From: Lachnospiraceae bacterium
GTDB lineage: Bacteria > Bacillota > Clostridia > Lachnospirales > Lachnospiraceae
Assembly (NCBI GenBank): GCA_910574195.1
Contig: CAJTBF010000001.1
Coordinates: 248,001 to 312,000 of the forward strand
Direction: 5' to 3'
DNA length: 64,000 nucleotides
The notes beneath the pieces were generated by a model, which was not told the DNA's origin, searched no databases, and worked only from the letters and a program-made list of their open reading frames with translations. Below are positions 46,642 to 64,000 of this stretch, piece after piece. The translations under genes and the position numbers were made by a program. Numbering within the stretch: the first letter of the stretch is position 1; every line of letters begins with the position of its first letter.

Positions 46642-46670
46642 TTGTCCATGGCATTGCTTTCGTGTATAAT
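46642..46670 (+). promoter_or_regulatory. Promoter of the small P-loop protein gene
   Basis: TTGTCC (46642-46647), 17-base spacer, TATAAT (46665-46670). Confidence 0.75.
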
Positions 46671-46730
46671 AGATACAAGAGAATTTGAGCCATGATACTC
46701 AAAAATTTTTACATAAAGGAGAGATTCGCC

Positions 46731-47153
46731 ATGGTAAATTTAATAACAGGCCCCAGAGGGAGCGGAAAGACACAACAGATGATTGAACTTGCAAACGAAA
46801 AGGTTAAGACCTCCAACGGCAACGTTGTCCTGATCAAAAAAAGCCGCCGGGATACATACAGTGTCAATTTTAATATCCGTGCCATCTGCATGGCCGACTA
46901 CTGCGATATCACAACATTAGAAGAACTGATCGGATTTTTATACGGTATGGTAGCCGGAAACCATGATATTGAGACAATCTTTATTGATGGTGTTTTAAAA
47001 CAGGCTGATATTACCCTTGACAATATTTCTGTATTTATGCAGAAGATCAATAAGATTTCCAAGGAAAATAACATCGAATTTTACATCAGCGTCAGCGCAG
47101 AAAAAGAAAAAATTCCGGATATTGAAAATCCGGATTATAAAGTAATCTGCTAA
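46731..47153 (+). CDS. Small P-loop NTPase, unknown function
   Basis: The 140-residue product starts MVNLITGPRGSGKTQQMIELA, with Walker A GPRGSGKT at residues 7-14, and has IETIFIDGV as a likely Walker B near 80. It lacks the extra domains of kinases, RecA or thymidine kinase but resembles a stripped-down AAA/thymidine-kinase-like core. AAAGGAGAG lies ahead of the ATG; a strong promoter and terminator bracket it as a single gene. I do not recognise the family. Confidence 0.75.
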   Translation: MVNLITGPRGSGKTQQMIELANEKVKTSNGNVVLIKKSRRDTYSVNFNIRAICMADYCDITTLEELIGFLYGMVAGNHDIETIFIDGVLKQADITLDNISVFMQKINKISKENNIEFYISVSAEKEKIPDIENPDYKVIC

Positions 47154-47156
47154 AAT

Positions 47157-47210
47157 GAAGAAGCCGTTGCTCCATAGAGTTCTCACCCTCTATCTTGCAA
47201 CGGCTCCTTC
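47157..47210. terminator. Bidirectional terminator between convergent genes
   Basis: gccgttgc (47163-47170) pairs with gcaacggc (47197-47204) and the inner atagag/ctctat continues the stem; it lies between the P-loop gene and the minus-strand gene ending at 47226. Confidence 0.8.
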
Positions 47211-47225
47211 GTTTTCCGATATTTC

Positions 47226-48920
47226 TCAGGAATCTTCTTCCATCCCTTCTGTACTTTCTTCTTCTGTACTCTCTTCCTCCGTATCCTCATCCTCCCTCTC
47301 AACAGGAGACGTTTTCGTTTTTCCATTCAGAGAAAGTACCGTATTCGTTTCCTCTCCCACTTTGTACTCTATGGTCACTTCATCCCCGATCTCATAGCGG
47401 ATAATCCCAATATAATCTGTTACCGGAATATCAAAAATCGCATCCGTCCCTTCCAGCATGATAAAATAGTGGGAATTTCCATCCACAACTCCCTGCGCAA
47501 TTTTACGAATCGGAGCGGTTATTTTTTCCACCTGGCGGGTATCCGCATCCACGACTTTAATGCCATTTTCATACATCAGACTGGTATAGGACTCCTCACA
47601 GGAACTCACCGTATCCCCGATGGCAACAATCTGATACTTCTGTACATTCACCATGGCATACTTTTTTACCAGTCCGGCATCATCTTTTAGCGCAATGAAA
47701 TACGTCGGCTCCCCGGAAATATTCAGCAGCAGAGGGAAGGTCGCCACATATTTCAAATTCTGTACCTGGCCCTCGGCAGAAGACATCGCCGAAGTTTCCG
47801 TTGCGCCCTCAATTGCATAAAATTTTGTTTCCATCGTCCTCTGATTCATCAGTACAAATCCCACGTTAGACTGATCCCCGCTGACGGAAGTTACACCTGT
47901 ATACACCCATACATCGTCATCCACTGCCAGATAATTATATCCGTTGGTCGTAATCAGACAGTCTTTCTGCCCCAGAACACTGTTGAAATATCCGTGCTTC
48001 AACGTTCCATAATAATCATACAATTCCACCAGCAGATCCGCCGAATAGGCCCTGTCAATCCATTGCGGCACGTCCTCAATCGCATAATCCTGTGTCTCCC
48101 CTGTCACCGCGTTACACAAAACAACCCGTCCCACGGTCACACCGCCGAACAGACCAATATTATATTTGCGCACCGGGCAGATCCAGTAAGGAACCCCTTC
48201 CTCATCAATCTCAAAACTCAGTTCATTAAAAATATAAGTGGGATACCGAAAGCGTAAATGCCGGTATATATTCCGGTTAAAATGATCACTTGTGGTATAC
48301 TTCATTCCCTCACTCAGTTTGACAAGTTCTGTATTCTGTGTTGCCATGTCAATGCGGACATACGCCGGAATCCCGTCGCTTTGATTGGTAAACCACTTGA
48401 TCAGACTGGCATACCGCAGCGGAGATACCCGTACCGGCTGATCCTGATAATTAATCTGGCTATACAGATCATCCACCTCAAACTGAGAAACCATGTCCAC
48501 CATACTGCCCATTTTCCGATTTCCCAGAATCTGGGCCGAATCACGATCCAAAAGCGGAATCTGATCGAAAGAAAGTTCTTCGATATCCTTGGTAAATTCT
48601 CCCTCCTTCACTTCCAGAAGCTGCTGATACTTCCTGGCATTTACGATGGGAGAGGAAAGAAGGGAACCAATCAGGTAACTTCCCACCAACAGTACCAGTA
48701 CTCCCCCGATCAATTTAAATCCTTTCAGTTCCTTCCATTCATGACGGGCAGGCTTTTTCTTTTTCAGATAAAAAAGTGCCGCCAGAATGACCACCAGAAT
48801 CAAAAACATCCACAAGTCCGAGGAATGCAGATTTAGTGCAGGCAGCGCAACATAATAATAAACCGCTGCAAGAACCAGTACCGCAAGAATCGCAATTCCT
48901 TTCCATTTTCTTTTTTTCAT
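47226..48920 (-). CDS. Large membrane-anchored protein of unknown function
   Basis: The 564-residue product has a basic start, two or three N-terminal helices (GIAILAVLVLAAVYYYVALPALNL, LWMFLILVVILAALFYL, LIGGVLVLLVGSYLIGSLL) and a long soluble part of about 450 residues with short beta-rich repeats (FGGVTVGRVVLCNAVTGETQDYAIEDVP, NVGFVLMNQRTMETKFYAIEGA), each pairing V-L-x-[ND] with T-x-[ED]-T and Y-A-I-E. It ends in an acidic low-complexity tail (EDTEEESTEEESTEG). I do not recognise a family. The repeats suggest a beta-propeller-like or PepSY-like scaffold; that is a guess. Confidence 0.75.
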   Translation of the reverse strand: MKKRKWKGIAILAVLVLAAVYYYVALPALNLHSSDLWMFLILVVILAALFYLKKKKPARHEWKELKGFKLIGGVLVLLVGSYLIGSLLSSPIVNARKYQQLLEVKEGEFTKDIEELSFDQIPLLDRDSAQILGNRKMGSMVDMVSQFEVDDLYSQINYQDQPVRVSPLRYASLIKWFTNQSDGIPAYVRIDMATQNTELVKLSEGMKYTTSDHFNRNIYRHLRFRYPTYIFNELSFEIDEEGVPYWICPVRKYNIGLFGGVTVGRVVLCNAVTGETQDYAIEDVPQWIDRAYSADLLVELYDYYGTLKHGYFNSVLGQKDCLITTNGYNYLAVDDDVWVYTGVTSVSGDQSNVGFVLMNQRTMETKFYAIEGATETSAMSSAEGQVQNLKYVATFPLLLNISGEPTYFIALKDDAGLVKKYAMVNVQKYQIVAIGDTVSSCEESYTSLMYENGIKVVDADTRQVEKITAPIRKIAQGVVDGNSHYFIMLEGTDAIFDIPVTDYIGIIRYEIGDEVTIEYKVGEETNTVLSLNGKTKTSPVEREDEDTEEESTEEESTEGMEEDS

Positions 48921-49099
48921 ACTTCATCCTTTCTTCCGTCCCCTTTTGTAAGGGACTTTTCATCAAATCTTTCTGCCGCCGCCTGCCTTCGCTGCCTTCG
49001 TCTCCTGAGCCCTTTTCTTTCGCGGCCAGAAACCCGCTATTGGCAGCTTTTCCGCATACTGCGCTTATCGAACTGCGAATGTTCCATAAGCATAGAACC

Positions 49100-50545
49100 T
49101 TAAAATTTTCTTCTCCACAATTCCGGTGATACCAGAAGCAGATATGGCATAATCTCCAGACGTCCTACTAACATATCCATGCAGAATACGACTTTGGACA
49201 GCACGGAAAACTGCGCGAAATTATTTACCGGGCCTACCTGAGAAATACCGGGCCCCACATTATTTAATGTTGTCAGCACCGCGCTGAAATTCGTCGCAAA
49301 ATCAAAATTGTTCAACGACACCACCAGAATGGATCCGATTAATACTAAAATGTAACAAATAAAATAAATATATACGCCATGCATCGTGTCTGCCCCTACT
49401 TTTTTTCCATTCACCTTTACAAGCGTCACCGCTTTCGGGTGCAGCATCCGCATCACTTCCTGACGAATACTTTTCAATAAAATCAACAATCTGGAAACTT
49501 TCATTCCACCCCCGGTCGAACCGGCACAGGCGCCAATCACCATCAACGTTAGCAAAATCATCTTACTAAGTTCCGGCCATAGATCGTAATTGGCCGTACA
49601 GAATCCGGTCGTTGTAATAATTGCCGCCACCTGGAAGGAAGCATAGCGAAATGCATGCAAAATATTTCCATAAAGATGCAGGATGTCCACACTGATCAAC
49701 ACCGCTGCTCCGATAATAATTCCCAGATAAACCCGAAGTTCCTCGTTCTTCAAAGTATCCCGCCAATTCTTTAAGCGAAGTAAGAAGTACAGATTAAAAT
49801 TCACTCCGAACAGAATCATAAATACCGTAATCACACCGTCAATGTAGGCGCTGTCATAATACGCCACACTTGCATTCCGGTTCGAAAATCCCCCTGTTCC
49901 GGCTGTACTGAATGCATGCAGCAGAGCATCGTAAAAGTTCATCCCCCCTAGCAACAACAGAATCACTTCCACCACCGTTAGGACAAAATACATCAAATAT
50001 AAAATCCGGGCCGTACTTCTCGCACGGGGCACCAGTTTATCCGCCTCCGGTCCCGGTACCTCCGCCCGCATCAGATGCATGGAATTCTCGTCATCCAGAG
50101 ACGTCAGCATCATGACAAACATCAGCACACCCATGCCGCCGATCCAATGTGTAAAGCTCCGCCAGAAAGAAATCCCCTTCGGCAGCGCCTCAATCTCTGT
50201 TAAAATGGTAGAACCTGTGGTAGTAAATCCGGACACCGTCTCAAAAAAGGCGTCCAGATAACTGGGAATGCTCCCTGACCAGAAAAAAGGAAGTGCGCCG
50301 AACAGCGACCACAAAATCCACGCGGAACCTACAATAATCATTCCCTCTTTTGCATAGATCATCTGATCCTTCGGTTTTTTTCTTCCCGCCAGTATATAAA
50401 TCCCGATCAACACCGCGCTTACCGGCAGAAAATACCATCCGCTCTGTTCCCCGTAGAGCAACGCCACAAATGCCGGCACCAAAAGGAGAAGTCCTTCCAC
50501 ACCCAGCATTTTCCCTATGATATAGATTGTCATTCTTGTATTCAT
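49100..50545 (-). CDS. trkH: Trk-type potassium uptake membrane subunit TrkH
   Basis: The 481-residue potassium channel-like transporter has four pore repeats: TVSGFTTTGSTIL, FSTAGTGGFSNRNAS, TTTGFCTANYDLW and TLNNVGPGISQVGPV supply the selectivity loops. IGACAGSTGGGMKVSRLL is the TrkH helix M5 signature. It is followed upstream by trkA on the same strand, 16 bases apart, so the operon is trkA-trkH. Confidence 0.95.
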   Translation of the reverse strand: MNTRMTIYIIGKMLGVEGLLLLVPAFVALLYGEQSGWYFLPVSAVLIGIYILAGRKKPKDQMIYAKEGMIIVGSAWILWSLFGALPFFWSGSIPSYLDAFFETVSGFTTTGSTILTEIEALPKGISFWRSFTHWIGGMGVLMFVMMLTSLDDENSMHLMRAEVPGPEADKLVPRARSTARILYLMYFVLTVVEVILLLLGGMNFYDALLHAFSTAGTGGFSNRNASVAYYDSAYIDGVITVFMILFGVNFNLYFLLRLKNWRDTLKNEELRVYLGIIIGAAVLISVDILHLYGNILHAFRYASFQVAAIITTTGFCTANYDLWPELSKMILLTLMVIGACAGSTGGGMKVSRLLILLKSIRQEVMRMLHPKAVTLVKVNGKKVGADTMHGVYIYFICYILVLIGSILVVSLNNFDFATNFSAVLTTLNNVGPGISQVGPVNNFAQFSVLSKVVFCMDMLVGRLEIMPYLLLVSPELWRRKF

Positions 50546-50561
50546 ATTCTACGCCTCTGCC

Positions 50562-51920
50562 CTATATCAAAATATCCTCGATATCCTGAATCTGCCTCTC
50601 CATCGTCACAACGATCACATTATCCCCGACCTGAATGCTGTCATCCCCGTTGGGTATGATAATCCTGCGTCCTCTTGCAATACATGCAATCAGGTTGTTT
50701 GATTTCAATGACAATTTCTTCAGCGGAATATCCGTATACGCTGTCGGCGCATTTACAATGAACTCCAACGCTTCCACTTTTCCGTCAATCAACTGATACA
50801 TCGTCTCTACATTCACACTGCCCTGGGAATTCCGCCTCGCACGTACATAGCTGAGAATTGCATCTGCAGTAACCGTTTTCGCGGATACGACACTGTCCAG
50901 CCCGAGTTCCTCAATCATCTTTGCTCTGCGGTCTTCATTGACTTTCAAAATAATCTTGGATACCCCCTGCTTTTTCGCAAACAGAGACATAATAATATTT
51001 TCCTCGTCCATCCCGGTCAAAGAGACAAATGCATCTGCTTCCTGCAAGCCTTCCTCCAGCAGCAGATCATGGTTTGACGCATCCCCGTGAATAATGGTCG
51101 CTTTCGGAAGATTCTCACACAATCCCTCACACTTTTCCCGGTTGATTTCGATAATTTTAATCTGCATCCCTAAATTGGACAACTGCATTCCCAGATAATA
51201 GCTCACCCGGCCGCCGCCACAGATCAGCACCCTTTTAATCTTTGACTTTCGATACCCAAACTGCTTAAAAAAACTGCGGATTTCTTTGTGGGATGCGGCA
51301 ATGTGCAGTCTGTCGCCCGCTTTCATTACAAATTCTCCATCCGGAATCACCACATCCTCCCCGCGCTCCACCGCGCAGACCAGCATCTTCACCTGAAACC
51401 GATTATACATCTCGGCAAGAGACATTTCCTTTAAACCACTCTGCTCCGTAATCCAGAACTCAATGAGTTCCACCCGGCCCTTTACAAATGTTTCAATCTT
51501 ACTTGCATCCGGAAACAGCATCTGACGGGCAATCTCCTGCCCCATCGTCAGTTCCGGGTTCACTGCCATACTCAGGTGCATGTCCTCTTTCAAAAAATCA
51601 ATCTGCTGATAGTAAATCGGGTTCCGTACCCTGGCAATGGTATGCCGCGCACCGATCCGTCTGGCAATCAGACAACTTAACATATTACATTCATCCGTGG
51701 ACGTACATGCGATCAACAGTTCCGCATCCTGTACGCCTGCACTTTTCTGTACCTCCACACTTCCCCCGTCTCCATGCACGCAAAAAATGTCCATGTGATT
51801 CATTGCATCCCGAAGTTTTCCTTCATTACTGTCAATCATTACCACATCATATTCTTCCGCGGAAAGTTGTTTCGCCAGCTTATAGCCTACCTTTCCGTCC
51901 CCGATGATCACGATTTTCAT
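50562..51920 (-). CDS. trkA: Trk potassium uptake regulatory protein TrkA
   Basis: The 452-residue cytosolic regulator is two RCK_N/RCK_C repeats: MKIVIIGDGKVGYKLAKQL (NAD-binding GxGxxG) at the start and RVLICGGGRVSYYLGMQL at about 230. Each is followed by a small TrkA_C domain (DGEFVMKAGDRLHIAAS; NGDDSIQVGDNVIVVT). It gates TrkH with nucleotides. I start at ATG 51920, since the longer frame adds 32 residues with no family match. Confidence 0.95.
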   Translation of the reverse strand: MKIVIIGDGKVGYKLAKQLSAEEYDVVMIDSNEGKLRDAMNHMDIFCVHGDGGSVEVQKSAGVQDAELLIACTSTDECNMLSCLIARRIGARHTIARVRNPIYYQQIDFLKEDMHLSMAVNPELTMGQEIARQMLFPDASKIETFVKGRVELIEFWITEQSGLKEMSLAEMYNRFQVKMLVCAVERGEDVVIPDGEFVMKAGDRLHIAASHKEIRSFFKQFGYRKSKIKRVLICGGGRVSYYLGMQLSNLGMQIKIIEINREKCEGLCENLPKATIIHGDASNHDLLLEEGLQEADAFVSLTGMDEENIIMSLFAKKQGVSKIILKVNEDRRAKMIEELGLDSVVSAKTVTADAILSYVRARRNSQGSVNVETMYQLIDGKVEALEFIVNAPTAYTDIPLKKLSLKSNNLIACIARGRRIIIPNGDDSIQVGDNVIVVTMERQIQDIEDILI

Positions 51921-52015
51921 GTCATAAAACCTCTTCTTCCCCAAATTCTCTATTCGGATAATACCGAAACAAAAGAGCAATTTTTCTTTTAGGCTGTTTT
52001 CTATATAGCAGAGCA

Positions 52016-52044
52016 ATTATAGCACTTTTATCCAAAAAGTACAA
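52016..52044 (-). promoter_or_regulatory. Promoter of the trkA-trkH operon
   Basis: On the minus strand TTGTAC (52044-52039), 17-base spacer, TATAAT (52021-52016), with TGC before the -10 giving an extended -10. Confidence 0.78.
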
Positions 52045-52100
52045 CGCCTATTCCTGGAACAATCGGCTTCTTCCGATTTTACTGCAAAACACCGCAGAAA

Positions 52101-52131
52101 ATGCCTACACTTCAAATTGAAATGTAGGCAT
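52101..52131 (-). terminator. Terminator of the V4R-GGDEF-kinase-DegV operon
   Basis: atgcctaca (52101-52109) pairs with tgtaggcat (52123-52131); an inner ttcaa/ttgaa extends the stem to about 14 bp with one mismatch. TTTTCT follows on the minus strand. Confidence 0.87.
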
Positions 52132-52211
52132 CGCCTGCATTAAATTTTAAACATTTTACCTGCCTGTTTGACCGAAAGCATATCATTTTTTGTTCTTTTC
52201 TATTTTATCCT

Positions 52212-54920
52212 TTATTCCTGAAATACTCCTGTTTCCATCCTTGATGCCCGGGAATAAGAAATAACCGCCTCATTCTTTTTCATGAACAGCAGCCCAAAGG
52301 AACCCGGACCGCAGTTACTTGAAATTGCAGAGGATGCTTTTTGTAAATAAACCCTCTCAAAAGGACAGTATTGCTTCACCAGCTTCTGTATATAAAGAAG
52401 GCTTTTCTCATCCATCCCACAATAAGTAATAAACAGAATACGCCGGTCAATATTTTTCGCATCCAAAAGTGCCTTTCTCACATAACTCTTTATCACATGC
52501 GCAAAATCACCGATCTCCGCACCGCCGACTACCATTTTGCTTTTTCGAAGCACAAGAACCGGATGCAGAAGAAGGGAGTCACAGAGAACCTGTATCCGTT
52601 TCGGTATTCTTCCCGCACGACACATCATATTGGTGCTGTTGATGATAAAAGCCGACGAAATGTAACGCCTCAACTGTCCCAGCGCTTCCACAATTTCCGC
52701 TTTTGTCGCATGATGTTCTGCCATATAGGCGGCATACAGGACAGAAAGTCCCATACTGCTTGACAGATGTCCCGAATCAATCACCGTCACATTCTCAAAA
52801 GATTTTGCCGCCTCCACCGCATGATGATATCCCTGGCTTACATTCTTTGCCATGGTAATATGTATCACATTCTGTGCTTCCGTCAGCCTATCCGCAAAAA
52901 ATCTTTCGTAATCTTCCACATCCGGGGGCTGGGATTCACCGCTTTTCCCTTCCGCTATGTAGAATAAAAGCTCATCTGCTTTCAACTCCACTTCATCCAA
53001 AAAGCGTCCCTGATCTGTGCAGACGTAATAGGGACATACGGAGATTCCAAATTCCTTCTTTAAAGACTCCGGAAGATCGCATACACTATCCGTTGTAACC
53101 AGAACCAACTGTCTCTGTGTCTGTTCAAAAATCAGAACCTCTTTTCCAATCTCAGACTGTCTGGCTTCCTCGCTCAGCTTTACCAGCTCCTTGGGAAGAA
53201 TACTCAGGACGGTTGCTTCCAGAAGCGCTCCACTTACCGGCTTTGCCAGATAGCCGCTAAAGCCTTCTTTCCGATAAAGAAGCTGGTTATCACTCCCCGC
53301 ATTGGCAGTCAATGCAATCACCGGCACATCCTGACACAAACCGCCCGGCTGCGTACGAAGCGCATGGAGACACTCTATTCCGTCCATCTCCGGCATCAAA
53401 TGATCCATCAGAATTCCATCATAATGTTGAACCTGTGTCAGTTTCAGACAATCGCTCCCGCTTAAAACAGTCTCGATCTGAATTTTTGTATCCGCAAGAA
53501 GTTTCCGTGTAACCATCAGGTTCATTTCGTTGTCATCCACCACAAGCAAATGCGCTTCCGGTGCCTCAAAACTCTGCCTGTACTGCTTCTCATCATGATT
53601 CTTCACCCGGGAATCCAATGTAAATGTTCCCAGCTCTCTTTCATCTACAATGTCCTGTTCCAGTGTAACAATAAACTTAGATCCCTTCGTATAAACACTG
53701 TTGACACTGATTTCCCCGCCCATCAGCTCTACAAGCTGACGGACAATACTCAGTCCCAGTCCTGTACCTTCAATATGACGATTTCTTTCTTCATCTACCC
53801 TGCGAAACGCATTAAAAAGGTACGGAATATTTTCCTTTTTTACCCCCTGTCCTGTATCCTCCACAGAATACCAGACACGCACCCTGTTTAGCCCCAGCCG
53901 TTCACATCGTGCGGAAAGGGTAACCGACCCCTTATCCGTATATTTTACGGCATTATTCAGAAGATTGATCAAAACCTGCTTGATGCGCACCTCATCGCCG
54001 CAGAGCATACTTGGAATGGAGGAATCCACTTGCAGCCGAAACTCGATTCCTTTCTCCTTCGCCTTAATCCATATCATATTGACAATCTCGGAAAAAAGCT
54101 TCCCTGTCTCATAAGATACATTGATAATCTCCATCTTTCCGGATTTGATTTTGGACAGATCGAGAATATCATTGATCAACGTAAGCAGCATCTTACTGGC
54201 GCCCTGAATGTTCCTCGCATTTTCGGCAACTTCCTCCGAGATATTCCCCCGCAGAGTAATCTCATTCAATCCGATGATCGTATTAATCGGCGTGCGAATC
54301 TCATGGCTCATACTGGTAAAAAAATAATTTTCCGCCTGATTCAGCTCTTCTATTTCTTTTTTCTGCTGTATGGAAAGTTCATTCTCCTCCTCATACAAAC
54401 TGTTCTGAAAAAGCAGTAACACACTGGTCAATACTCCTGTCAGAATCACACAGCGCACAGAGTCAAAATGAGCCTGCGCCGCGGTATTCTGCACGACAAG
54501 TGCCGGATAATAATAAGCAATATAATAGCAGGCGATTGTCTCCACCATGCAAAACAGAAAAAATATGCCTTTCCGTTTTCCTTCCAGCGCAATACTTATA
54601 TAAATAAAACAAAGTACAAACCACTCGGGCGCGCCCCCGTATGCTCCACCCGCCGAAAAAAAACTGATCGGAAAAAGCAGGAGAAGAAGTATCACAATCG
54701 CTGTCGCTCCCGCATTGATGCGATCCTTTTTTATACTTACTTTCAGTACAACCACCATATAGATAAGACTGAACAGCAATACATACAAATTAAATGCATA
54801 CCTGCTCATAAGCAGTATGAAAATCAACGCAATCATGCTGATGCCTGTGACCAGACGAAACATGCGTTCCCGCAGACTAAGCCTGTGGTCGAATGCTTTA
54901 TCAAACCATTTTTTTAACAC
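52212..54920 (-). CDS. Hybrid sensor histidine kinase with C-terminal DegV (FakB-like) domain
   Basis: The 902-residue protein, in order: about six membrane helices (20-173), coiled-coil signalling helix, HisKA with SHEIRTP (His206), HATPase with N322 region LLNNAVKYT, DTGQG (355-359) and GTGLG (385-389), a receiver (Asp506 acceptor in ILMDHLMPEMDG, Asp462/463, Lys560), then a complete DegV domain (about 604-885). The latter has VTTDSVCDLPESL, HITMAKNVSQGYHHAVEAA, DSGHLSSSMGLSVLYAAYMA, CRAGRIPKRIQ and NCGPGSFGLLFM. The HtGPG histidine that contacts the fatty acid head group in FakB is Asn here. The start is a GTG with AGGAGG ten bases ahead. Last gene of a five-gene operon, 66 bases after the kinase upstream. 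Fatty-acid sensing or loading coupled to phosphorelay is the inference. Confidence 0.93.
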   Translation of the reverse strand: MLKKWFDKAFDHRLSLRERMFRLVTGISMIALIFILLMSRYAFNLYVLLFSLIYMVVVLKVSIKKDRINAGATAIVILLLLLFPISFFSAGGAYGGAPEWFVLCFIYISIALEGKRKGIFFLFCMVETIACYYIAYYYPALVVQNTAAQAHFDSVRCVILTGVLTSVLLLFQNSLYEEENELSIQQKKEIEELNQAENYFFTSMSHEIRTPINTIIGLNEITLRGNISEEVAENARNIQGASKMLLTLINDILDLSKIKSGKMEIINVSYETGKLFSEIVNMIWIKAKEKGIEFRLQVDSSIPSMLCGDEVRIKQVLINLLNNAVKYTDKGSVTLSARCERLGLNRVRVWYSVEDTGQGVKKENIPYLFNAFRRVDEERNRHIEGTGLGLSIVRQLVELMGGEISVNSVYTKGSKFIVTLEQDIVDERELGTFTLDSRVKNHDEKQYRQSFEAPEAHLLVVDDNEMNLMVTRKLLADTKIQIETVLSGSDCLKLTQVQHYDGILMDHLMPEMDGIECLHALRTQPGGLCQDVPVIALTANAGSDNQLLYRKEGFSGYLAKPVSGALLEATVLSILPKELVKLSEEARQSEIGKEVLIFEQTQRQLVLVTTDSVCDLPESLKKEFGISVCPYYVCTDQGRFLDEVELKADELLFYIAEGKSGESQPPDVEDYERFFADRLTEAQNVIHITMAKNVSQGYHHAVEAAKSFENVTVIDSGHLSSSMGLSVLYAAYMAEHHATKAEIVEALGQLRRYISSAFIINSTNMMCRAGRIPKRIQVLCDSLLLHPVLVLRKSKMVVGGAEIGDFAHVIKSYVRKALLDAKNIDRRILFITYCGMDEKSLLYIQKLVKQYCPFERVYLQKASSAISSNCGPGSFGLLFMKKNEAVISYSRASRMETGVFQE

Positions 54921-54986
54921 CCTTCATTTACCTCCTAATAACATGGATGCCGCCAACGCAATCTTGCTGAATCCCTTTTTGATATA

Positions 54987-57479
54987 CTAGAAACCAGCAA
55001 TGCTTTCGCACACTTCTTCATACATACGAAGTAACGTCGGATGATGCTCTCTGATAAAATCCACGTCTCCCCTCTTTCCCGCCATCTCCAGTGTTTTTGC
55101 ATACTCTGAGAGCCGTTCTGCACCAATTGTCAGCGATGTACTTTTTAATGCGTGAACCTTGACTGCATAATCCGTCCAGTTGCCCGCCTCGTAAAGAGCG
55201 ATGATCTCCTTTTTCTTTTCTTCGCTCTGATCACAAAACATCTGCAGCATCTCCAGATAAAATTCCTCTTCCCCACTGCAATAAGCCAGTCCCATCTCTC
55301 TATTAATACCTGCTTTTGCAAACAGATCGTCAGGTTCCTCTTTTACAGGTACATCTCCACATTCTGTTTTTATAGGTACATCTTCAGACTCTGCTTTTGC
55401 CTCGCCAGTCGAAACTTCCGCATGATTCTGTATGCACTGTTTCGGCAGCATACGGCGTAAAGCTCTCTCCAGAACAGAACGTTCGATCGGCTTCGGGATA
55501 AATTCTGTAAACCCTTCATTTTTGAACATCTCTCTGGCACCGCTGATTGTATTTGCCGTCAACGCAACAATCGGAATCTCCTGATAAATTCCATTTTCAA
55601 TCTCACGTATACAGCGTAATGTCTCCACACCATCAAATCCAGGCATCATATGATCCAGAAACACAATATCATAGACGGTATTTCTACACCATTGTACGGC
55701 CGCTCTTCCACTTAAACAAGTATCCACCTGTATCCCATAACTGCCCAGAACACCTTTTGCCACTACAAGATTCATCTCTTCATCATCAACAACAAGTACC
55801 CGTACTCCGTTACAGTAAAACGGCCTGTGGCCGGAATCCTGAACCTCTTCAAATCCATCCCCCTGTGCCACACCCCTTAATAGATTTACAACAGAAAGAG
55901 CAAAAAACGGTTTTCGCAGCACAAGAAGTTTGCTCTCTTTATCCACAACAAACTTTTTATCTGCAATGACTACCACCGGCATACTCTCTGCCAATTCTTT
56001 ATAATAGGAACTGTTCTCCTCATATTCCGTCTGTGCAATAAATACATGTGTCATCTTATGCTCTTTGAGCAACTTCAAAAGCCCTTCAAAATTATGAGCC
56101 TGATATCCCTCAATACCAAGCCCTTCCACCATATGAAGGATCATATTGTCATAATACATTCTTATTTCATCACAAGTGTATTTCTCCGGTCTGAAATAAC
56201 ACGCGATGCAGACCTTCTCCACATCTACAATTTGGATCCCCGGTGCCGGATCTTTCACTTCCTGCGGAATCGTAATGTGTGCCTCCAACCCATGCTGCCC
56301 TTCACTTTCAAAATGAACAAAACCTCCCATGGCATGAAGAAGGCCCCTGGCAATGGGAATCCCCAGACCCAGTCCCCCTGCAAAGCGGCTGCTTCCGGAA
56401 TCTGCCTGATAAAATTCATCATACATCTGTGTAAGCTGAGAAGTTGTCATACCGATCCCCGTATCATAGATATCGATGAGTAGATTGATCCCATACTCTT
56501 CCTTCCGAAATCCGACATGGACATAGATTCCCCCCTCTTCTGTAAACTTAAGGGAATTTTCCAAAAGAATTTTAAGTACATGGGAGATTTTTTCTGCATC
56601 GCCTATCAGCACTGCCGGTACCTGCGGTTCCACATCAAACACTATCTCCAGTTCCCCTCTGCTGCTCTGCATTGCAGTCATGGTAATCACATCATTGACC
56701 ACCGAGGTCAACATATATTCTTCCTTTATCGCAGTCAAGGTACCTTCTACAATCTCCGTATAATCCAGCATATTATTAATCTGGCTTGACAGGCGCTTCC
56801 CTGCCATCTGTATCGACTGCATGTCTTCCCTGATCTCCGGAGAAAGCTCTTTTCCAAGCGCCACCTCACTGATCCCAATTACCATGTTGATCGGAGTCCG
56901 AAGTTCATGGGAAACATTGGACAAAAACTCGGCATTCTGTCGCCCTGCTTCCTCCAACTCTGAAAGTGTATTTTCGTGCCGTCTCCTTGCCGCCTTTCTC
57001 CTGTCAAGCCGATATCTTGCAATCAAAAATGCTCCCACCGTCACTGCCGCACCCAGTACCAAACGTACCAATTCCCGGACACCCATTCCGGAAGTAATCG
57101 TATGAAGAACCAAAAAATGATAAAAAAGTGCCAGAATGTACAGACCGACTGTTATATACAGCAACCTTTTCCTATCCCGCAAAGAAAAAATAAGAAGCAG
57201 GATACATGCCAGAACAGGTATCTCAAAAAGTACCTCCCTATGCACTCCAAAGAAAAAAAATTCAATCAGTACCAATCCTGCACACAGATTTTCATACAGT
57301 AAGCCAACTCCCTCGACTCTGATGTGAACCCACCAGAGAATCATGCATCCGATGACAATCAACGGGACAATCCACAGCTCCCATGACAGGGCCGCCGTAA
57401 CCAGGATCAGCATCGCACTGAACGTACTGGCAACAACTGCCAAAAGCAGATATATACTTGTCTGCTCATGTTCTCTCAT
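54987..57479 (-). CDS. Hybrid sensor histidine kinase (HK-pseudoREC-REC-HPt)
   Basis: The 830-residue protein has about five or six membrane helices (8-155), HisKA with SHELRTP (His191), HATPase (N309 region LLENSLKFT; GGLGLG at 368-373), a receiver-like segment (about 422-538) that lacks the phosphorylatable Asp cluster, a true receiver (558-678; Asp565/566, Asp609, Lys663), a Lys/Glu linker with repeated DVP-x-K, and an HPt domain (725-830) with KVHALKST (His776). The whole phosphorelay His-Asp-His lies in one chain, so the final Asp must be elsewhere; the lone receiver whose stop overlaps this gene's start is the natural target. Confidence 0.93.
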   Translation of the reverse strand: MREHEQTSIYLLLAVVASTFSAMLILVTAALSWELWIVPLIVIGCMILWWVHIRVEGVGLLYENLCAGLVLIEFFFFGVHREVLFEIPVLACILLLIFSLRDRKRLLYITVGLYILALFYHFLVLHTITSGMGVRELVRLVLGAAVTVGAFLIARYRLDRRKAARRRHENTLSELEEAGRQNAEFLSNVSHELRTPINMVIGISEVALGKELSPEIREDMQSIQMAGKRLSSQINNMLDYTEIVEGTLTAIKEEYMLTSVVNDVITMTAMQSSRGELEIVFDVEPQVPAVLIGDAEKISHVLKILLENSLKFTEEGGIYVHVGFRKEEYGINLLIDIYDTGIGMTTSQLTQMYDEFYQADSGSSRFAGGLGLGIPIARGLLHAMGGFVHFESEGQHGLEAHITIPQEVKDPAPGIQIVDVEKVCIACYFRPEKYTCDEIRMYYDNMILHMVEGLGIEGYQAHNFEGLLKLLKEHKMTHVFIAQTEYEENSSYYKELAESMPVVVIADKKFVVDKESKLLVLRKPFFALSVVNLLRGVAQGDGFEEVQDSGHRPFYCNGVRVLVVDDEEMNLVVAKGVLGSYGIQVDTCLSGRAAVQWCRNTVYDIVFLDHMMPGFDGVETLRCIREIENGIYQEIPIVALTANTISGAREMFKNEGFTEFIPKPIERSVLERALRRMLPKQCIQNHAEVSTGEAKAESEDVPIKTECGDVPVKEEPDDLFAKAGINREMGLAYCSGEEEFYLEMLQMFCDQSEEKKKEIIALYEAGNWTDYAVKVHALKSTSLTIGAERLSEYAKTLEMAGKRGDVDFIREHHPTLLRMYEEVCESIAGF

Positions 57480-57838
57480 TTCTTCTCAAACTCCTTTTCA
57501 ATCCGCTCCAGCAAATCCTGTGGGAGAAATGGCTTTTTCAGATAATTGACTGCTCCCAGCCTGATTGCACTCATCACGTCATCCTCATATCCTGATGCGG
57601 TCAGGAATATTACAGGAATCTCATCGTATTTTCCTTTCATCTGTTCAAAGGTCTCGATTCCATTCATTCCAGGCATCTCAATATCCAGAAGAACCAAATC
57701 TATGGACTCATTCTCCAGCTTTTGAAGTGCCTTTTCTCCCGATTCCGCAAGGATCACATCATACTGCTTCTCCAGTATAATCTTGGTTCTCCTTAAATTC
57801 ATTGCATCATCATCTACCACTAAAATACGTTTTTGCAT
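57476..57838 (-). CDS. Stand-alone response regulator receiver (CheY-like)
   Basis: The 120-residue single REC domain has the acidic pocket in LVVDDDAMN (Asp9-11), phospho-acceptor Asp52 in LVLLDIEMPGMNG, Thr80 and Lys102 (LKKPF). It carries no output domain. Its stop overlaps the start of the HPt-bearing kinase (ATGA), and it lies 28 bases after the diguanylate cyclase. It probably receives phosphate from the HPt and acts by protein contact, possibly on its cyclase neighbour; the output is not shown by sequence. Confidence 0.93.
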   Translation of the reverse strand: MQKRILVVDDDAMNLRRTKIILEKQYDVILAESGEKALQKLENESIDLVLLDIEMPGMNGIETFEQMKGKYDEIPVIFLTASGYEDDVMSAIRLGAVNYLKKPFLPQDLLERIEKEFEKK

Positions 57839-57866
57839 ATACTGTTCCCTCCGTTCTCTCCTCTTT

Positions 57867-59120
57867 TTATCTCTTCTCAGATATAGAATGCTTTTCTACT
57901 TTTCGATCCCTGTATGCATTCAGAACTTCCTTTGCATCTTTTAAAATCTCATCCAGGGATATTTCATTGTACCTTTCATTTATCTCTACAATTCCATAAC
58001 TGAAACTGCATTGATATTTTCCATAGAATTCTTCTTCAAACTCCCGTAAGATTTCGGCCAGTTTCCTGTTCATCAGTTCTGCCATATTACCGGTAAGGAC
58101 AACACAGAATTCATCTCCGCCAATCCGTGCAAACGTGTCTCCACCTCGGAAATTTTTCCGGACAATTTCTACAACATTCTGAATATAGTCGTCCCCTGCC
58201 TGATGCCCCAACACTTCATTCACCTCTTCCAGACCATCCAGTTTCAGGTAACAAAGCGTTGCCTCCAGCTCTTCACACAAAACAATCTCCATATATTCTT
58301 CAAAGAAGGAACGATTCTTAATGCCTGTCAGCGGATCCCGGTTTTCCTTGCTGGTAAGATTTCGAACATTCCGCTTCTCGTCCGTAATATCAACCACCAC
58401 ATGCACATAAGAGGAATGTTCTTTCCACTCCATCTGGAAAGAAGTGACACGGTACGCGGTATCAAGCTCACCTTCCATCTCCCATACCTTATACTGTTCA
58501 TTGCTGTCCCATTTTAAAAGTTCGGTCTGAAAAGAGAGGCGCCGTTTGCAGGTTTCGCAAAAAGATTTATCCATAATTCCTACCTGCTTTTTCTTATTAC
58601 AGTATATAATTTCCCTGCTGTCTTTATCTACAACAAGAAGCCATTCCTTTCGCTTACTCAGCATCTCTACCAAAAGCTCATTGTAGCCTTCAATCATCTC
58701 TGCACGACGTTCTGCTTTTACCGCTTCTTCCTGCAATTTTGCTTCTCTTTCCTTTAACTGTCTCGTCATTTCATTAAATGCAACAGAAAATTCCCCCAGA
58801 TAAGCTACATGCTGGGAATAGTCCCCCTTTGCCACCTGCTGCGCCTGCCAGGTAAGATGATTCAGATTTGCATGAAGATTTTTCAAATTTTCGCAGAGAA
58901 AATTATATTCCTCCGGAAACTCCACAGAAAGATTTCCTTTTGAAAGTTCTGCCGAATAGGAGACCAATTCCCTCACTGCCGTCTCCAGATACTGAAGTCC
59001 GCGTCCCAGATCCTTATATGGTTCGCTCAACGCATCTACTTCAAAATGCTCAATCCAGGAATCATAAAGAATCCCTCTTAAGTATTCAAATAACAGTTCA
59101 CAATTCTTATTCGTCTCCAT
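57867..59120 (-). CDS. Soluble HAMP-PAS-GGDEF diguanylate cyclase
   Basis: The 417-residue protein has no membrane helix. Residues 50-130 look like two tandem HAMP-type helical hairpins (LSKGNLSVEFPEEYNFL, VAKGDYSQHVAYLGEFSVAFNEMTRQL). A PAS-like region follows (143-248) with a CETC pair (188-191), which could bind a metal or redox group. The GGDEF domain (255-415) carries ARIGGDEF (334-338), the Mg ligand region CYLKLDGLEEVNEVLGH, and RGGD (325-328), the RxxD I-site five residues ahead. It should therefore make c-di-GMP and be product-inhibited. Confidence 0.93.
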   Translation of the reverse strand: METNKNCELLFEYLRGILYDSWIEHFEVDALSEPYKDLGRGLQYLETAVRELVSYSAELSKGNLSVEFPEEYNFLCENLKNLHANLNHLTWQAQQVAKGDYSQHVAYLGEFSVAFNEMTRQLKEREAKLQEEAVKAERRAEMIEGYNELLVEMLSKRKEWLLVVDKDSREIIYCNKKKQVGIMDKSFCETCKRRLSFQTELLKWDSNEQYKVWEMEGELDTAYRVTSFQMEWKEHSSYVHVVVDITDEKRNVRNLTSKENRDPLTGIKNRSFFEEYMEIVLCEELEATLCYLKLDGLEEVNEVLGHQAGDDYIQNVVEIVRKNFRGGDTFARIGGDEFCVVLTGNMAELMNRKLAEILREFEEEFYGKYQCSFSYGIVEINERYNEISLDEILKDAKEVLNAYRDRKVEKHSISEKR

Positions 59121-59142
59121 TTTACGTGTCCGTCCCCCTTAC

Positions 59143-59679
59143 TTATTCCTTTCTGTCTGCCCGGAACCGGCATACTCTGTCACCGGTAGCCCAGCAGTTT
59201 ACCTCTGTCGCGGTATAACTTTTTCCTGTATAGGAAGTGAGAATCCCGGACAAAAATCCCTCATCATAATTACAAACTGTCTCTCCCAGGAGGGGAAGTC
59301 CGGAACAATCGGCATCCTCAGACATCGTAAGGATGGCTTCCCCTGTGTCCTCCTCAAACTTCTCTATCCGAAGCACACCTATTTTAAACTCTTCCAAACG
59401 TTTCTGAAGTAACGCCATAAACTCTGACAATTCCAGAGACGAATCCAGATATTTCTGTGCAAAATATACGCCCGCCCGGTACCCTGCATCTCGAAAAATA
59501 CGGATCTGTTCCTCTTTTCCGAACCGTTCTGTCAATTCCTCACGAAGCGAATACTCCAAAAGTCTGTACACAGCAACCGGAAGTTCTGCCCCCAGATTTT
59601 CCCTTCCTTTTTCCTGTATCTGCATATAATCTGCAAGCCGATACTCCTTTCTGTCCCTCAAAAAAACATTTTCCTCCAA
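59143..59679 (-). CDS. V4R (4-vinyl reductase) domain protein
   Basis: The 178-residue protein has an alpha-helical first half (LGAELPVAVYRLLEYSLREELTERFG, RIFRDAGYRAGVYFA) and a V4R second half (GLPLLGETVCNYDEGFLSGILTSYTGKSYTATEVNCWATGDRVCRFRA) with Cys125, 136, 162 and 170 placed as in the family's predicted Zn or ligand site. V4R domains bind small, often hydrophobic molecules and feed signalling proteins. The start is TTG 59679, seven bases after GTGAGGG; no better start is seen. It is the first gene of the operon, 22 bases ahead of the cyclase. Confidence 0.88.
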   Translation of the reverse strand: MEENVFLRDRKEYRLADYMQIQEKGRENLGAELPVAVYRLLEYSLREELTERFGKEEQIRIFRDAGYRAGVYFAQKYLDSSLELSEFMALLQKRLEEFKIGVLRIEKFEEDTGEAILTMSEDADCSGLPLLGETVCNYDEGFLSGILTSYTGKSYTATEVNCWATGDRVCRFRADRKE

Positions 59680-59723
59680 TGAAAAACCCTCACTTTACTA
59701 TTTTTTATCGTATGGGCTTAGAC

Positions 59724-59750
59724 GCATGAAATATTCCCTCAAATTCATGC
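59724..59750. promoter_or_regulatory. Inverted repeat upstream of the V4R operon
   Basis: gcatgaa (59724-59730) and ttcatgc (59744-59750) form a perfect 7-bp dyad with a 13-base centre, 45-71 bases before the V4R start. A TACGAT lies just downstream of it on the minus strand, but no consensus -35. Candidate operator. Confidence 0.45.
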
Positions 59751-59879
59751 TTCCATACTCAGCTTTTTTCATTATAACGGATTTTTCTCTGTTTGCCAAT
59801 CACCGAAATAACAAAATCAGAAAGTCTATGCAAATCCCCCGCCACCGGCAGTTTGTCCGCATACGATGTGATAAAAAAA

Positions 59880-59905
59880 GAAAGCCTGCCCAAAGGCAGA
59901 CTTTC
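59880..59905 (-). terminator. Terminator of the EF-G-like gene
   Basis: gaaagcctgcc (59880-59890) pairs with ggcagactttc (59895-59905), tetraloop caaa, then a run of seven T on the minus strand. Confidence 0.88.
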
Positions 59906-59918
59906 CGGTTTTTCTCTT

Positions 59919-61994
59919 CTATTCTGCTGCAGCTCTGGCTGCAATCTCTTTTTCCTGTACATCGGACGGCGCCTGCTCATATCTTGCAAAGGTATAAGCG
60001 TAGGTTCCTCTTCCACCTGTCATGGAACGAAGAATGGTGCAATATCCAAACAACCCCGTCATCGGAATATCCGCTTCAATAACCTGCTTTCCTCCGGCAA
60101 TCGGATTCATGCCAAGTACCCGGCCACGTCTTTTGTTCAGATCACCCATTACATCTCCGGTATAACTGTCCGGAACCGTTACTTTCAGAGAAACAATGGG
60201 TTCTAGAAGTACCGGATGCGCTTCCATGAAGCCCTTCTTAAATGCCTGAATGGTGGCCGTCTTAAATGCCATCTCCGAGGAATCTACCGGATGATAGGAA
60301 CCGTCATACAGCGTCGCCTTCACACCCACAACCGGATAACCTGCAAGAGGTCCTTTCAGAACGGAATCCTGCAGCCCTTTTTCCACCGCCGGGAAATAAT
60401 TCTTCGGTACGGCGCCTCCAACCACTACTTCCTCAAATACATAGGGTACTTCCAGATCTCCGGACGGTTCAAACCGCATCTTTACGTGCCCATACTGTCC
60501 ATGTCCACCGGACTGCTTCTTATACTTGGTGTCCACGTCCGAATTCTTGCGGATGGTCTCCCGAAACGCTACTTTTGGTGTCTCCAGAAGGATTTCCACC
60601 TTATACCTTGCTGCCAGTTTGCTGGCTGTGATCTCCAGATGCTGGTCTCCCATACCATACAGCAGCGACTGCCGGTTCTCGCTGTCCACTACGGCTTTCA
60701 AAGTCACATCCTCCGCCATCATCCGTGCCAGCGCCTGTGCCACCTTATCTTCCTCCCCTTTATTCTTTACGCGGTACCGCATATATGTATAGGGAACGGA
60801 ATATTCCGTCTTCGTATAGAGAACCTGCGTAGCCTTGGTGGAAAGTGTATCTCCGGTCTTCGTACTGGTCAGCTTCGCAATCGCTCCGATATCTCCGGCA
60901 AACAGTTCACTGACTTCCGTCGGTTTATTCCCGCACATTACATACAGCTTGCCCGGCTTTTCTTCGGATTCACTTCCCGCATTATACAGGACATCCTCTC
61001 CTTTGAGCACGCCGGAACATACTTTAATGAACGAATATTTCCCGATGAACGGATCCACCATCGTCTTAAACACGTATGCTGTCTTTGCCTTGGAAAAATC
61101 ATAATTCGCTTCAAAAATATCGTTCGTCGTCCGATTGATTCCCGCACAGCTTCTCTTATCCGGACTGGGGAAGAAACGTACAATATCCGAAAGCAGATTC
61201 GCCGCGCCCTGCGCCTGCACATTGGATCCCATGGCCACGGGAACGATGGAACCGTCCATCACTTCCGTACGCATTGCCGCACGGATCTCTTCCACAGAAA
61301 ATTCCTCGCCGCCGAAATACCGCTCCATGAACTCTTCGCTGGTTTCTGCCACCGCTTCCATCAGAGAATCCCGCAGCGTCTCCAGATTCGCCATACAATA
61401 TTCCGGGATCTCACATTCTTCTCTCTGTCCGATGCCGGTATATCTTCTTCCCGCATTCTTGATAATATTAATATATCCTACCAGCTTTTCATTCTCCCGG
61501 ATCGGCTGAAAATGAGGTGCAATCTTCTTGCCGTACTTTTCCGTCAAATCTTCCACTACCTGACGGAAACTGGCATCGTCCACATCCATCTCCGTCACGT
61601 AGATCATACGCGGCAGATTATACTTGTCGCACAGCTCCCACGCCTTTTCTGTTCCCACCTGGACTCCGGCTTTTCCGGACACCACGATGACGGCGGCATC
61701 GGCAGCGCTGACTGCCTCTTCCACTTCCCCGACAAAATCAAAATATCCCGGTGTATCCAGTATATTAATCTTCGCCTTTTCCCATTCGATCGGTACAATG
61801 CTTGTGCTGATCGAAAATCCACGCTTCTGTTCTTCCTTATCAAAATCACTTGTCGTATTGGACTCTGCAACTTTGCCCATACGGTTTGATGCTCCAGATA
61901 CATATAACATTGCTTCCACAAGACTTGTCTTCCCACTGCCTCCGTGTCCAAGCAATACTACATTTCTAATCTCATCTGTTCTGTAAACCTTCAT
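59919..61994 (-). CDS. Elongation factor G paralogue, type II (EF-G2-like)
   Basis: The 691-residue, five-domain translational GTPase has P-loop GHGGSGKT (16-23), DTPGYFDF (80-87) with Tyr84 where EF-G has the catalytic His, and TEMD (134-137) in place of the NKxD guanine-specificity motif. SGGHGQYGHVKM and GGAVPKNYFPAVEKG are domain IV/V EF-G sequence. The Tyr is shared with EF-G2/FusA2 paralogues. It is not the housekeeping fusA, which would sit with rpsL/rpsG. I start at ATG 61994, seven bases after AGGAGG. It stands alone between its own promoter and terminator. Role may be recycling, ribosome rescue or a stress state; unproven. Confidence 0.9.
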   Translation of the reverse strand: MKVYRTDEIRNVVLLGHGGSGKTSLVEAMLYVSGASNRMGKVAESNTTSDFDKEEQKRGFSISTSIVPIEWEKAKINILDTPGYFDFVGEVEEAVSAADAAVIVVSGKAGVQVGTEKAWELCDKYNLPRMIYVTEMDVDDASFRQVVEDLTEKYGKKIAPHFQPIRENEKLVGYINIIKNAGRRYTGIGQREECEIPEYCMANLETLRDSLMEAVAETSEEFMERYFGGEEFSVEEIRAAMRTEVMDGSIVPVAMGSNVQAQGAANLLSDIVRFFPSPDKRSCAGINRTTNDIFEANYDFSKAKTAYVFKTMVDPFIGKYSFIKVCSGVLKGEDVLYNAGSESEEKPGKLYVMCGNKPTEVSELFAGDIGAIAKLTSTKTGDTLSTKATQVLYTKTEYSVPYTYMRYRVKNKGEEDKVAQALARMMAEDVTLKAVVDSENRQSLLYGMGDQHLEITASKLAARYKVEILLETPKVAFRETIRKNSDVDTKYKKQSGGHGQYGHVKMRFEPSGDLEVPYVFEEVVVGGAVPKNYFPAVEKGLQDSVLKGPLAGYPVVGVKATLYDGSYHPVDSSEMAFKTATIQAFKKGFMEAHPVLLEPIVSLKVTVPDSYTGDVMGDLNKRRGRVLGMNPIAGGKQVIEADIPMTGLFGYCTILRSMTGGRGTYAYTFARYEQAPSDVQEKEIAARAAAE

Positions 61995-62065
61995 GCTGCT
62001 GCCTCCTTGCGTCATTTTTTACGTGCACTTTAGGATTCTGACCTCGCAGTACACACCATGTTCAT

Positions 62066-62094
62066 ATTGTACTAAATTTCTACATTTATTACAA
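62066..62094 (-). promoter_or_regulatory. Promoter of the EF-G-like gene
   Basis: On the minus strand TTGTAA (62094-62089), 17-base spacer, TACAAT (62071-62066), about 65 bases before the start codon region. Confidence 0.7.
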
Positions 62095-62311
62095 CTCTTT
62101 TATAAATATTTCACAACTTTTCTGCGATCATTCTATGGTATTTGTCTCTGTTGAATCATGTCCTCACGAAATACGCCAGACTGCGCATTCCTGAGCCGTG
62201 AAAAGTATTATCTGTCTCTTACAGAGGGAACCCGACACAGGTTTCCACTTGCAGCAGACCGTTTAAAATGCTAAAATGTCTGTATTGCAAAAGCAGAAAG
62301 GATTTTGAACT

Positions 62312-63409
62312 ATGTCTGAAAAGAAAATCGGATTCATAGGACTGGGACTGATCGGCGGCTCCATCGCAAAAGCAATCCGGCAATATTATCCTGCCTGGAA
62401 GATCCTGGCCTTTGATAAAAATAAAGAAACGCTGGCGCTGGCCGTACAGGAAGGAACTATTCATACCTCCTGTTCTTCTATTGACGAACATTTCCGGGAC
62501 TGTGCCTACATTTTTCTGTGTGCCCCTATTTCCTATAATACCGCTTATTTAAGTCAGCTCAAAGAGTATCTGGGGCCGGACTGTATCCTGACAGATGTAG
62601 GCAGCGTGAAAACATCCATCCATGAAGAAGTGACCGCATTGGGATTAGAAGAGTATTTTATCGGCGGCCATCCTATGGCAGGTTCCGAAAAAAGCGGATT
62701 TATCAATGCAAAAGCGCATCTGATCGAAAACGCATATTACATTCTGACACCGTCTGCCATGGTTTCCGAAGAAAAGTTATCCGCATATCGTACTTTCGTG
62801 GAATCGCTGAAAGCCCTTCCCATCATACTGGACTATCGGGAGCACGACTACGTCACAGGCACGATCAGTCATTTACCACACATTCTTGCGGCCAGCCTGG
62901 TCAATTTCGTTCGGAACACAGATACCAAGGAGGAATTGATGAAACATCTTGCCGCAGGCGGTTTTAAAGATATTACACGCATTGCCTCTTCCTCTCCGAT
63001 TATGTGGCAGCAGATCTGCTTAAAAAATAAAGAACATCTCTCACACATTCTTGGAGCATATATCCGGACATTGCAGCAGACAAAAGAATGGGTGGATACC
63101 GGAGAAGAAACCGCTCTTTATTCCATGTTCGAGACTTCCCGCGATTATCGGAATTCCATGCCCAACAGCTCCTGCGGTCCCATCAAAAAACAATATGCCG
63201 TATACTGTGATATCATTGACGAGGCCGGAGGAATCGCCACCATCGCCACCATTCTGGCAAGTAATCTGATCAATATCAAAAACATCGGCATTATTCACAA
63301 CCGGGAATTCGAGGAAGGAGTTCTGCGAATTGAATTTTATGAAGAAGAGGCTTCTGTGAGGGCCGCCGCACTTCTGAAAAAATACCGGTATATTGTCTAT
63401 GAAATTTAA
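62312..63409 (+). CDS. tyrA: Prephenate dehydrogenase with C-terminal ACT domain
   Basis: The 365-residue product has the NAD-binding GLGLIGGSIAKAI (GxGxxG), the DVGSVKTSIHEEV and GGHPMAGSEKSGF segments with the prephenate-contacting His, SHLPHILAASLV, and a C-terminal ACT domain from about 290 (GGIATIATILASNLINIKNIGIIHNREFEEGVLRIEF) for tyrosine feedback. It converts prephenate to hydroxyphenylpyruvate. It is followed by aroA in the same direction, so an aromatic amino acid operon starts here. Confidence 0.95.
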   Translation: MSEKKIGFIGLGLIGGSIAKAIRQYYPAWKILAFDKNKETLALAVQEGTIHTSCSSIDEHFRDCAYIFLCAPISYNTAYLSQLKEYLGPDCILTDVGSVKTSIHEEVTALGLEEYFIGGHPMAGSEKSGFINAKAHLIENAYYILTPSAMVSEEKLSAYRTFVESLKALPIILDYREHDYVTGTISHLPHILAASLVNFVRNTDTKEELMKHLAAGGFKDITRIASSSPIMWQQICLKNKEHLSHILGAYIRTLQQTKEWVDTGEETALYSMFETSRDYRNSMPNSSCGPIKKQYAVYCDIIDEAGGIATIATILASNLINIKNIGIIHNREFEEGVLRIEFYEEEASVRAAALLKKYRYIVYEI

Positions 63410-63430
63410 AAGACATTGAAACATTTGGCT

Positions 63431-63461
63431 GTAACAGTCCAGCCTTCGGCTCCCCTGTTAC
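63431..63461. repeat. Short REP palindrome between tyrA and aroA
   Basis: gtaacag (63431-63437) pairs with ctgttac (63455-63461) around cagcc-ttc-ggct. Same family as the copies at 15.85, 16.0, 17.6 and 29.9 kb, again just after a stop codon. Confidence 0.65.
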
Positions 63462-63536
63462 ATTACGCTTCGCCAGAGGCAGATATTTACTTGAAAAAAC
63501 GAAAACTTTTGTTCCAGGAAAGGACGGAATCATAGT

Positions 63537-64000
63537 ATGGATACCATAGAATTGACAAATATTACAGGATTGCGCGGAGAAGTCCGAGTGCCGGGAGACA
63601 AATCCATCTCTCACCGCAGCGTCATGCTTGGCGCCATTGCACAGGGCATCACAGAAGTCTCTCATTTTTTACAGGGGGCAGACTGCCTTGCCACCATCGA
63701 CTGTTTTCGCCGGATGGGAATTGAAGTGGAACACAGACAGACTTCTCTTGTAATCCACGGAAGAGGACTGCACGGATTACACGCTCCCACAGAACTTTTA
63801 AATGTAGGCAACAGCGGCACTACCACCCGGCTTCTATCCGGTATTCTGTCCGGGCAGCCTTTTGATTCCAAATTATCCGGAGATGAATCCCTCAATTCCC
63901 GCCCCATGAAGCGGATTATCGAACCGCTTACCCAAATGGGCGCCAATATTTCCAGTATTCTTCGAAACGACTGCGCACCGCTCTATATCACGCCGGGACA
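63537..64000 (+). CDS. aroA: 3-phosphoshikimate 1-carboxyvinyltransferase (EPSP synthase), 5' part, runs off the right edge
   Basis: An open frame from ATG 63537 continues to the window end without stop (154 residues seen). It starts MDTIELTNITGLRGEVRVPGDKSISHRSVMLGAIAQG; VPGDKSISHRS is the substrate-binding signature, and NVGNSGTTTRLLSGIL is the second EPSP synthase motif (GNSGTT), then SGDESLNSRPMKRIIEPLTQMGA. AAAGGA lies 10-15 bases upstream. It sits next to tyrA in the shikimate branch. Confidence 0.96.
   Translation, partial: MDTIELTNITGLRGEVRVPGDKSISHRSVMLGAIAQGITEVSHFLQGADCLATIDCFRRMGIEVEHRQTSLVIHGRGLHGLHAPTELLNVGNSGTTTRLLSGILSGQPFDSKLSGDESLNSRPMKRIIEPLTQMGANISSILRNDCAPLYITPG

Follow-up and report, generated by a model that had tools for sequence, protein, structure and literature searches.

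How do a V4R protein, a GGDEF protein, a lone receiver and two hybrid kinases come to lie in a row in a Lachnospiraceae bacterium, and what could they control together? The window, the whole 64,000-nucleotide stretch of DNA that was analysed, carries the five open reading frames on the minus strand, separated in gene order by 22, 28, -4 and 66 bases; an earlier note had given these frames, order and gaps, and the ORF coordinates bear it out. The V4R protein (178 aa, TTG start, 59143..59679; identified by Pfam, alignment and fold) is preceded by a promoter-like site, TTGGCA-17-TATAAT (59771..59799, minus strand, 11 of 12). The GGDEF protein (57867..59120), a predicted pseudo-cyclase, consists of a helical N-terminal part, a PAS-like part and the GGDEF domain. 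The lone receiver, lREC (120 aa, 57476..57838), was assigned by Pfam and by a tree, and the two kinases by Pfam: HK1 (54987..57479) has six hydrophobic segments followed by HisKA-HATPase, a pseudo-REC, REC and HPt, and HK2 (52212..54920) has five hydrophobic segments followed by HisKA-HATPase-REC-DegV. A hairpin identified by folding energy lies after HK2 (52090..52150, minus strand) and is a possible terminator. The "one strong terminator" of the earlier note holds as far as the hairpin is concerned (-29.1 kcal/mol, z -7.5), but the U-tract is short (U4) and the site is not among the 13 found by a terminator scan.

The operon is flanked by EF-G upstream and by TrkA and TrkH downstream. Three other loci (L098, L099 and L100) keep the identical five-gene order and have no EF-G, TrkA or TrkH match over 9 kb on the upstream side and about 2 kb on the downstream side; chance adjacency of the five genes was rejected because the order persists amid other flanks. 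A promoter-like site of similar kind can be seen before V4R in L099, and none in L098 or L100. A near-identical plasmid copy of the operon was rejected, as megablast, the only search used, gave no match. No Rfam element reached gathering scores in 45000-64000, and a genome search for a c-di-GMP-I riboswitch, equally silent on all its controls, gave no match. Elsewhere in the window, a restriction-modification pair at 11304-13105, made up of a DNA methylase (PF01555) and the adjoining HindIII-type restriction endonuclease (PF09518), overlaps the 2-kb bin of lowest GC (0.36), and an ODP metallo-beta-lactamase plus flavodoxin protein of the flavodiiron type is located at 16364-17572. The operon is real and partly conserved, and it is a variant of known two-component and c-di-GMP parts. 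Its five genes are two modules: module A (lREC-HK1-HK2) and module B (V4R with a GGDEF-type partner).

In module A, lREC matches REC with 108 bits, and Pfam finds HisKA, HATPase, REC and HPt in HK1 and HisKA, HATPase, REC and DegV in HK2. The putative pseudo-REC of HK1 has no Pfam match and is assigned from its position and missing Asp. Among 397 genomes of the family, 18, counting the window's, have an HK2 orthologue of at least 74% identity, near full length in 16; V4R is found in 2 of the 18 genomes and is absent from 16. Five other genomes of the genus have HK2 at 76-78% identity (6/12 counting the window's). The lREC-HK1-HK2 order is seen in the fetched loci, which were taken from the top of the HK2 match list rather than at random. 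We tabulated 70 HK2 rows, 24 close and 46 more distant; in L059 and in one L060 row the gene treated as HK1 is a different one. Just upstream of HK1, 22 of the close rows have an intact lone REC, one (L030) has a remnant and one (L033) has none. The distant rows have REC-HD-GYP in 15 cases (14 by script; L057, where HK1 is split and the scripted class was "none", was moved there by eye), GGDEF plus HD-GYP in 4, GGDEF in 4, REC with other parts in 5, a lone REC in 1 and none in 10, with 7 at or near a contig edge. REC plus HD_5 is confirmed by Pfam in L053, L054 and L057. REC-HD-GYP is a predicted c-di-GMP phosphodiesterase.

All trees were quick ones with SH-aLRT support only. The HK2 tree nests the lone-REC clade (25 rows, L033 included, support 99) beside L053, which has REC-HD-GYP. 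The tree favours loss of the HD-GYP part in the window lineage, leaving lREC, a direction of domain loss that we infer. The change between lone REC and HD-GYP occurs twice on this tree, once in L077, and receiver types are labile, with 14 changes across all five classes. The HPt domain follows DegV of HK2 in 13 rows, and in the 12 of these with a visible HK1, none of the HK1 proteins (0/12) has an HPt; this pattern suggests a single HPt serving both kinases. Departures from one HPt per kinase pair are L064, with an HPt match in a separate gene, and L067, with none seen.

The C-terminus of HK2 matches DegV with 128 bits and resembles FakB1 chains and FakB structures. In FakB1, His270 belongs to the carboxylate network, and Arg173 is a further residue for comparison (PMC8892158). 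The His270 position is Asn in 68/72 kinase DegV domains and the Arg173 position is Arg in 38/72, the window's belonging to both groups; from these residues, a role of the kinase DegV domain as a Fak substrate carrier appears unlikely. HK2 resembles FakB in the DegV domain and differs in its fusion to a kinase and in the mostly Asn residue at His270.

In module B, the V4R protein passes the Pfam threshold (PF02830, 54 bits, cut-off 31), and its sole NCBIfam match, MsvR, is below the cut-off (57 bits, 220 needed). Residues of note are C125, C136, E159, C162 and C170. The last four make up a predicted Cys/Glu/Cys/Cys metal site of the MopR/PoxR type (matches to PoxR and MopR are weak) and are kept in 81/81 V4R sequences; the aligned MopR/PoxR site binds Zn. 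Lipid sensing by V4R, as the earlier note had it, is unsupported; the protein is a putative small-molecule or redox sensor. Among the best 80 of 374 V4R loci, 77 have a partner with the same N-terminal region, adjacent or fused (8/77 fused). The partners are mostly of the GGDEF type and a few are kinases: in L176, L177 and L019 (= L164), V4R lies beside the same N-terminal region leading into a histidine kinase or GHKL, not GGDEF. Such partners raise the possibility that V4R serves this N-terminal region generally as a sensor in trans. Several loci were fetched twice from one place (L010/L110, L012/L127, L014/L159, L015/L144, L016/L139, L017/L113, L019/L164, L020/L115, L024/L135, L036/L108 and L037/L103), and one of each pair was used in the module B, active-site and linkage counts.

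The GGDEF protein had been read as HAMP-PAS-GGDEF. GGDEF stands (84 bits), while HAMP is below the Pfam cut-off (21 of 25 bits) and PAS has no Pfam match; a PAS-like part is nevertheless supported by the predicted structure (mean pLDDT 82, pTM 0.44), which has a mixed sheet before GGDEF and whose best Foldseek hits are structures of PAS-GGDEF-EAL proteins (5xgb, E 4.8e-13). The active site was read with the residue roles of PleD. The GGDEF motif (334-338) and the I-site (R325-x-x-D328, intact as claimed before) are present, and the first metal-binding Asp is replaced by K293. At this position, 72 V4R-linked GGDEF proteins have D (56), Q (10), K (5) or G (1). All 15 K/Q proteins, those of the window and of L098-L111, form one clade (support 98), so that the residue is K/Q in 15/15 clade members as against D in 56/57 others. 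R325 and D328 of the I-site and G335-F338 are invariant in 15/15 clade members. Seven residues invariant in 17 intact members (D293, K298, D302, K404, K408, G264 and I320) are lost or nearly lost in the clade, and 7/15 members have S or D in place of the first G of GGDEF. The divergence ratio of GGDEF to the PAS-like part is 1.45 in the clade and 0.59 in intact members. A different worn GGDEF motif is seen in L122, L124 and L126.

As the metal Asp is lost while the I-site is kept, the GGDEF protein of the window clade is probably a pseudo-cyclase, one that most likely retained c-di-GMP binding at the I-site. The earlier note had instead made it an active cyclase switched by lREC. That reading, which we consider quite improbable, can draw on the retained GGDEF motif, N301 and R332, and on the V4R-linked relatives outside the clade, of which 51/57 have the metal Asp together with an unbroken GGDEF motif; activity is also reported for proteins in which the GGDEF motif itself varies (PMC3974145). 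It is opposed by the clade-wide absence of the metal Asp, the loss of further invariant residues and the relatively faster evolution of the GGDEF part. The name "cyclase" is doubtful for a protein with K293, phosphorelay control of an active cyclase, the central step of the earlier note, is unlikely, and the evidence is better for a phosphorelay linked with a V4R pseudo-cyclase.

The window genome has five GGDEF matches, one HD-GYP match (PF13487) and two PilZ matches. The only PF13487 match lies in a REC-HD-GYP gene on contig C6, with a hybrid kinase gene after it (L180, 2262-3860 and 4231-6777). One GGDEF protein is an intact paralogue without V4R (C1:513010-514143). Two such GGDEF proteins (E 1e-30), one worn and V4R-adjacent and one intact, are found in 13/15 clade genomes; of the 13 intact paralogues, 5 are fused to V4R and 8 have no V4R within the short stretch fetched (the metal-Asp residue of L192 was assigned by eye). 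The intact paralogues of L194 and L196 have, by eye, N-terminal residues resembling those of fused V4R-GGDEF proteins with the V4R part absent, which suggests loss of V4R. This pairing could mean that the pseudo-GGDEF protein forms a hetero-dimer with the intact paralogue under control of V4R and lREC, with c-di-GMP binding at the I-site secondary. We consider this, too, quite improbable: the worn and intact members do occur together in 13/15 clade genomes, with no V4R seen near the intact one in 8/13 within the short fetched stretch, but two of the 15 genomes (2.4 and 2.6 Mb) have a single GGDEF member.

The pseudo-cyclase clade is also where the modules meet. In 9/15 clade loci, lREC or HK2 is next to V4R/GGDEF, in three arrangements: V4R-GGDEF-lREC-HK1-HK2 (window, L098, L099 and L100), lREC-HK1-HK2-V4R-GGDEF (L107 and L111, with HK2-V4R-GGDEF at a contig start in L109) and lREC-V4R-GGDEF (L103 and L108). 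The other six loci (L101, L102, L104, L105, L106 and L110) show no linkage over about 9 kb, or over a shorter span where a contig ends. The conserved order and co-occurrence that the earlier note proposed to look for are found in part: the five-gene order is shared by the window and L098-L100, but 6/15 clade loci are unlinked and the association is essentially that of one clade. In two species lREC has been relocated, being found at the V4R loci (L036/L037) as against the kinase loci (L033/L030); the genomes of L103 (G398) and L108 (G401) have a 33-residue lREC remnant, or none, at the kinase locus. The lREC at the V4R locus of L103 and L108 nests in the lone-REC clade of a weakly resolved receiver tree, where L057 is represented by an incorrect gene with a long branch. 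A close HK2 is present in 13/14 clade genomes versus 2/34 others (50 of the 80 V4R loci). The L133 genome (close HK2 with intact GGDEF) and the L102 genome (worn GGDEF, no HK2) are exceptions; the clade genomes of L112 and L119 also carry a fused intact V4R-GGDEF. The GGDEF state changes 3 times on the tree, and an independent-pairs test of co-occurrence, with 4 pairs, 0 of them informative, gave it no support outside one clade (L153, L165 and L172 left out of both). The association of HK2 with V4R-GGDEF is mainly one clade on the tree; co-occurrence of the modules is essentially that of one clade and hence no statistical proof.

The genes could also be merely co-transcribed and co-inherited, with phosphorylated lREC acting elsewhere or as a phosphate sink and V4R/GGDEF regulated separately. 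This is a rather unlikely alternative: the lREC-bearing module A exists in genomes lacking V4R and V4R/GGDEF is unlinked in those six clade loci, while the three joined arrangements and the two species with lREC beside V4R speak against it. We tentatively favour, at a little under an even chance, the joining of two older modules, with phosphorylated lREC docking on a V4R/pseudo-GGDEF complex that combines three inputs. The membrane hybrid kinases HK1 and HK2-DegV would feed one HPt, which would phosphorylate the receiver. The ancestral receiver would have been the switch of a REC-HD-GYP c-di-GMP phosphodiesterase, whose HD-GYP part was lost here. V4R would act in trans as the sensor of its HAMP-like/PAS-like/GGDEF partner, in the clade a pseudo-cyclase most likely still binding c-di-GMP at the I-site. 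The docked complex would thus receive the kinase signal, the V4R ligand or redox state, and c-di-GMP, and would relay its output, perhaps to the intact GGDEF paralogue encoded at a separate locus. The sequence itself shows the gene order, the kinds of receiver, the lost residues and the co-occurrence, and from these we infer each phosphotransfer, binding and catalytic step. The boldest form, a phosphorelay that shed its phosphodiesterase and whose stripped receiver was rewired onto a V4R-sensing pseudo-cyclase, the latter reading c-di-GMP and directing the intact paralogue, three signals on one dead enzyme, seems to us rather unlikely. If true, the scheme would show a second-messenger circuit rewired through loss of enzymes with the switches kept, V4R would become known as a partner that acts in trans on GGDEF proteins, and gut Lachnospiraceae would have a route from kinases to c-di-GMP in which one kinase carries a FakB-like domain.

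A search of open-access papers on V4R with diguanylate cyclase or GGDEF, and on DegV with HD-GYP or histidine kinase, gave no such system; a published V4R/diguanylate cyclase case is a fusion of V4R with photoactive yellow protein. Among the closest known systems are H-NOX proteins with diguanylate cyclases. The RpfC/RpfG (DSF) system has a membrane hybrid kinase with REC and HPt, a REC-HD-GYP partner and c-di-GMP output. These parts recur in distant module A loci, including the Rpf-type REC-HD-GYP regulator, and HK1 is likewise a hybrid kinase with REC and HPt; here, however, there is a second kinase with DegV, and the window has a lone REC without HD-GYP. The V4R domains of the phenol sensors MopR, PoxR and DmpR are fused to sigma-54 activators, whereas here V4R is separate or GGDEF-fused, with 15-18% identity. 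PopA has a degenerate GGDEF with a worn active site and binds c-di-GMP. The fatty acid DSF is reported to bind RpfC (PMC5391125). The Cys spacing of the window V4R, 26 and 8, equals that of C206/C232/C240 of MsvR (PMC3729527); MsvR differs in being a DNA-binding regulator of methanogens. SgmT is described as a c-di-GMP receptor (PMC3509222). The window protein shares with PopA and SgmT a worn GGDEF active site and, as predicted from its RxxD I-site, c-di-GMP binding by the GGDEF part, and differs from both in its linkage to V4R and a lone receiver.
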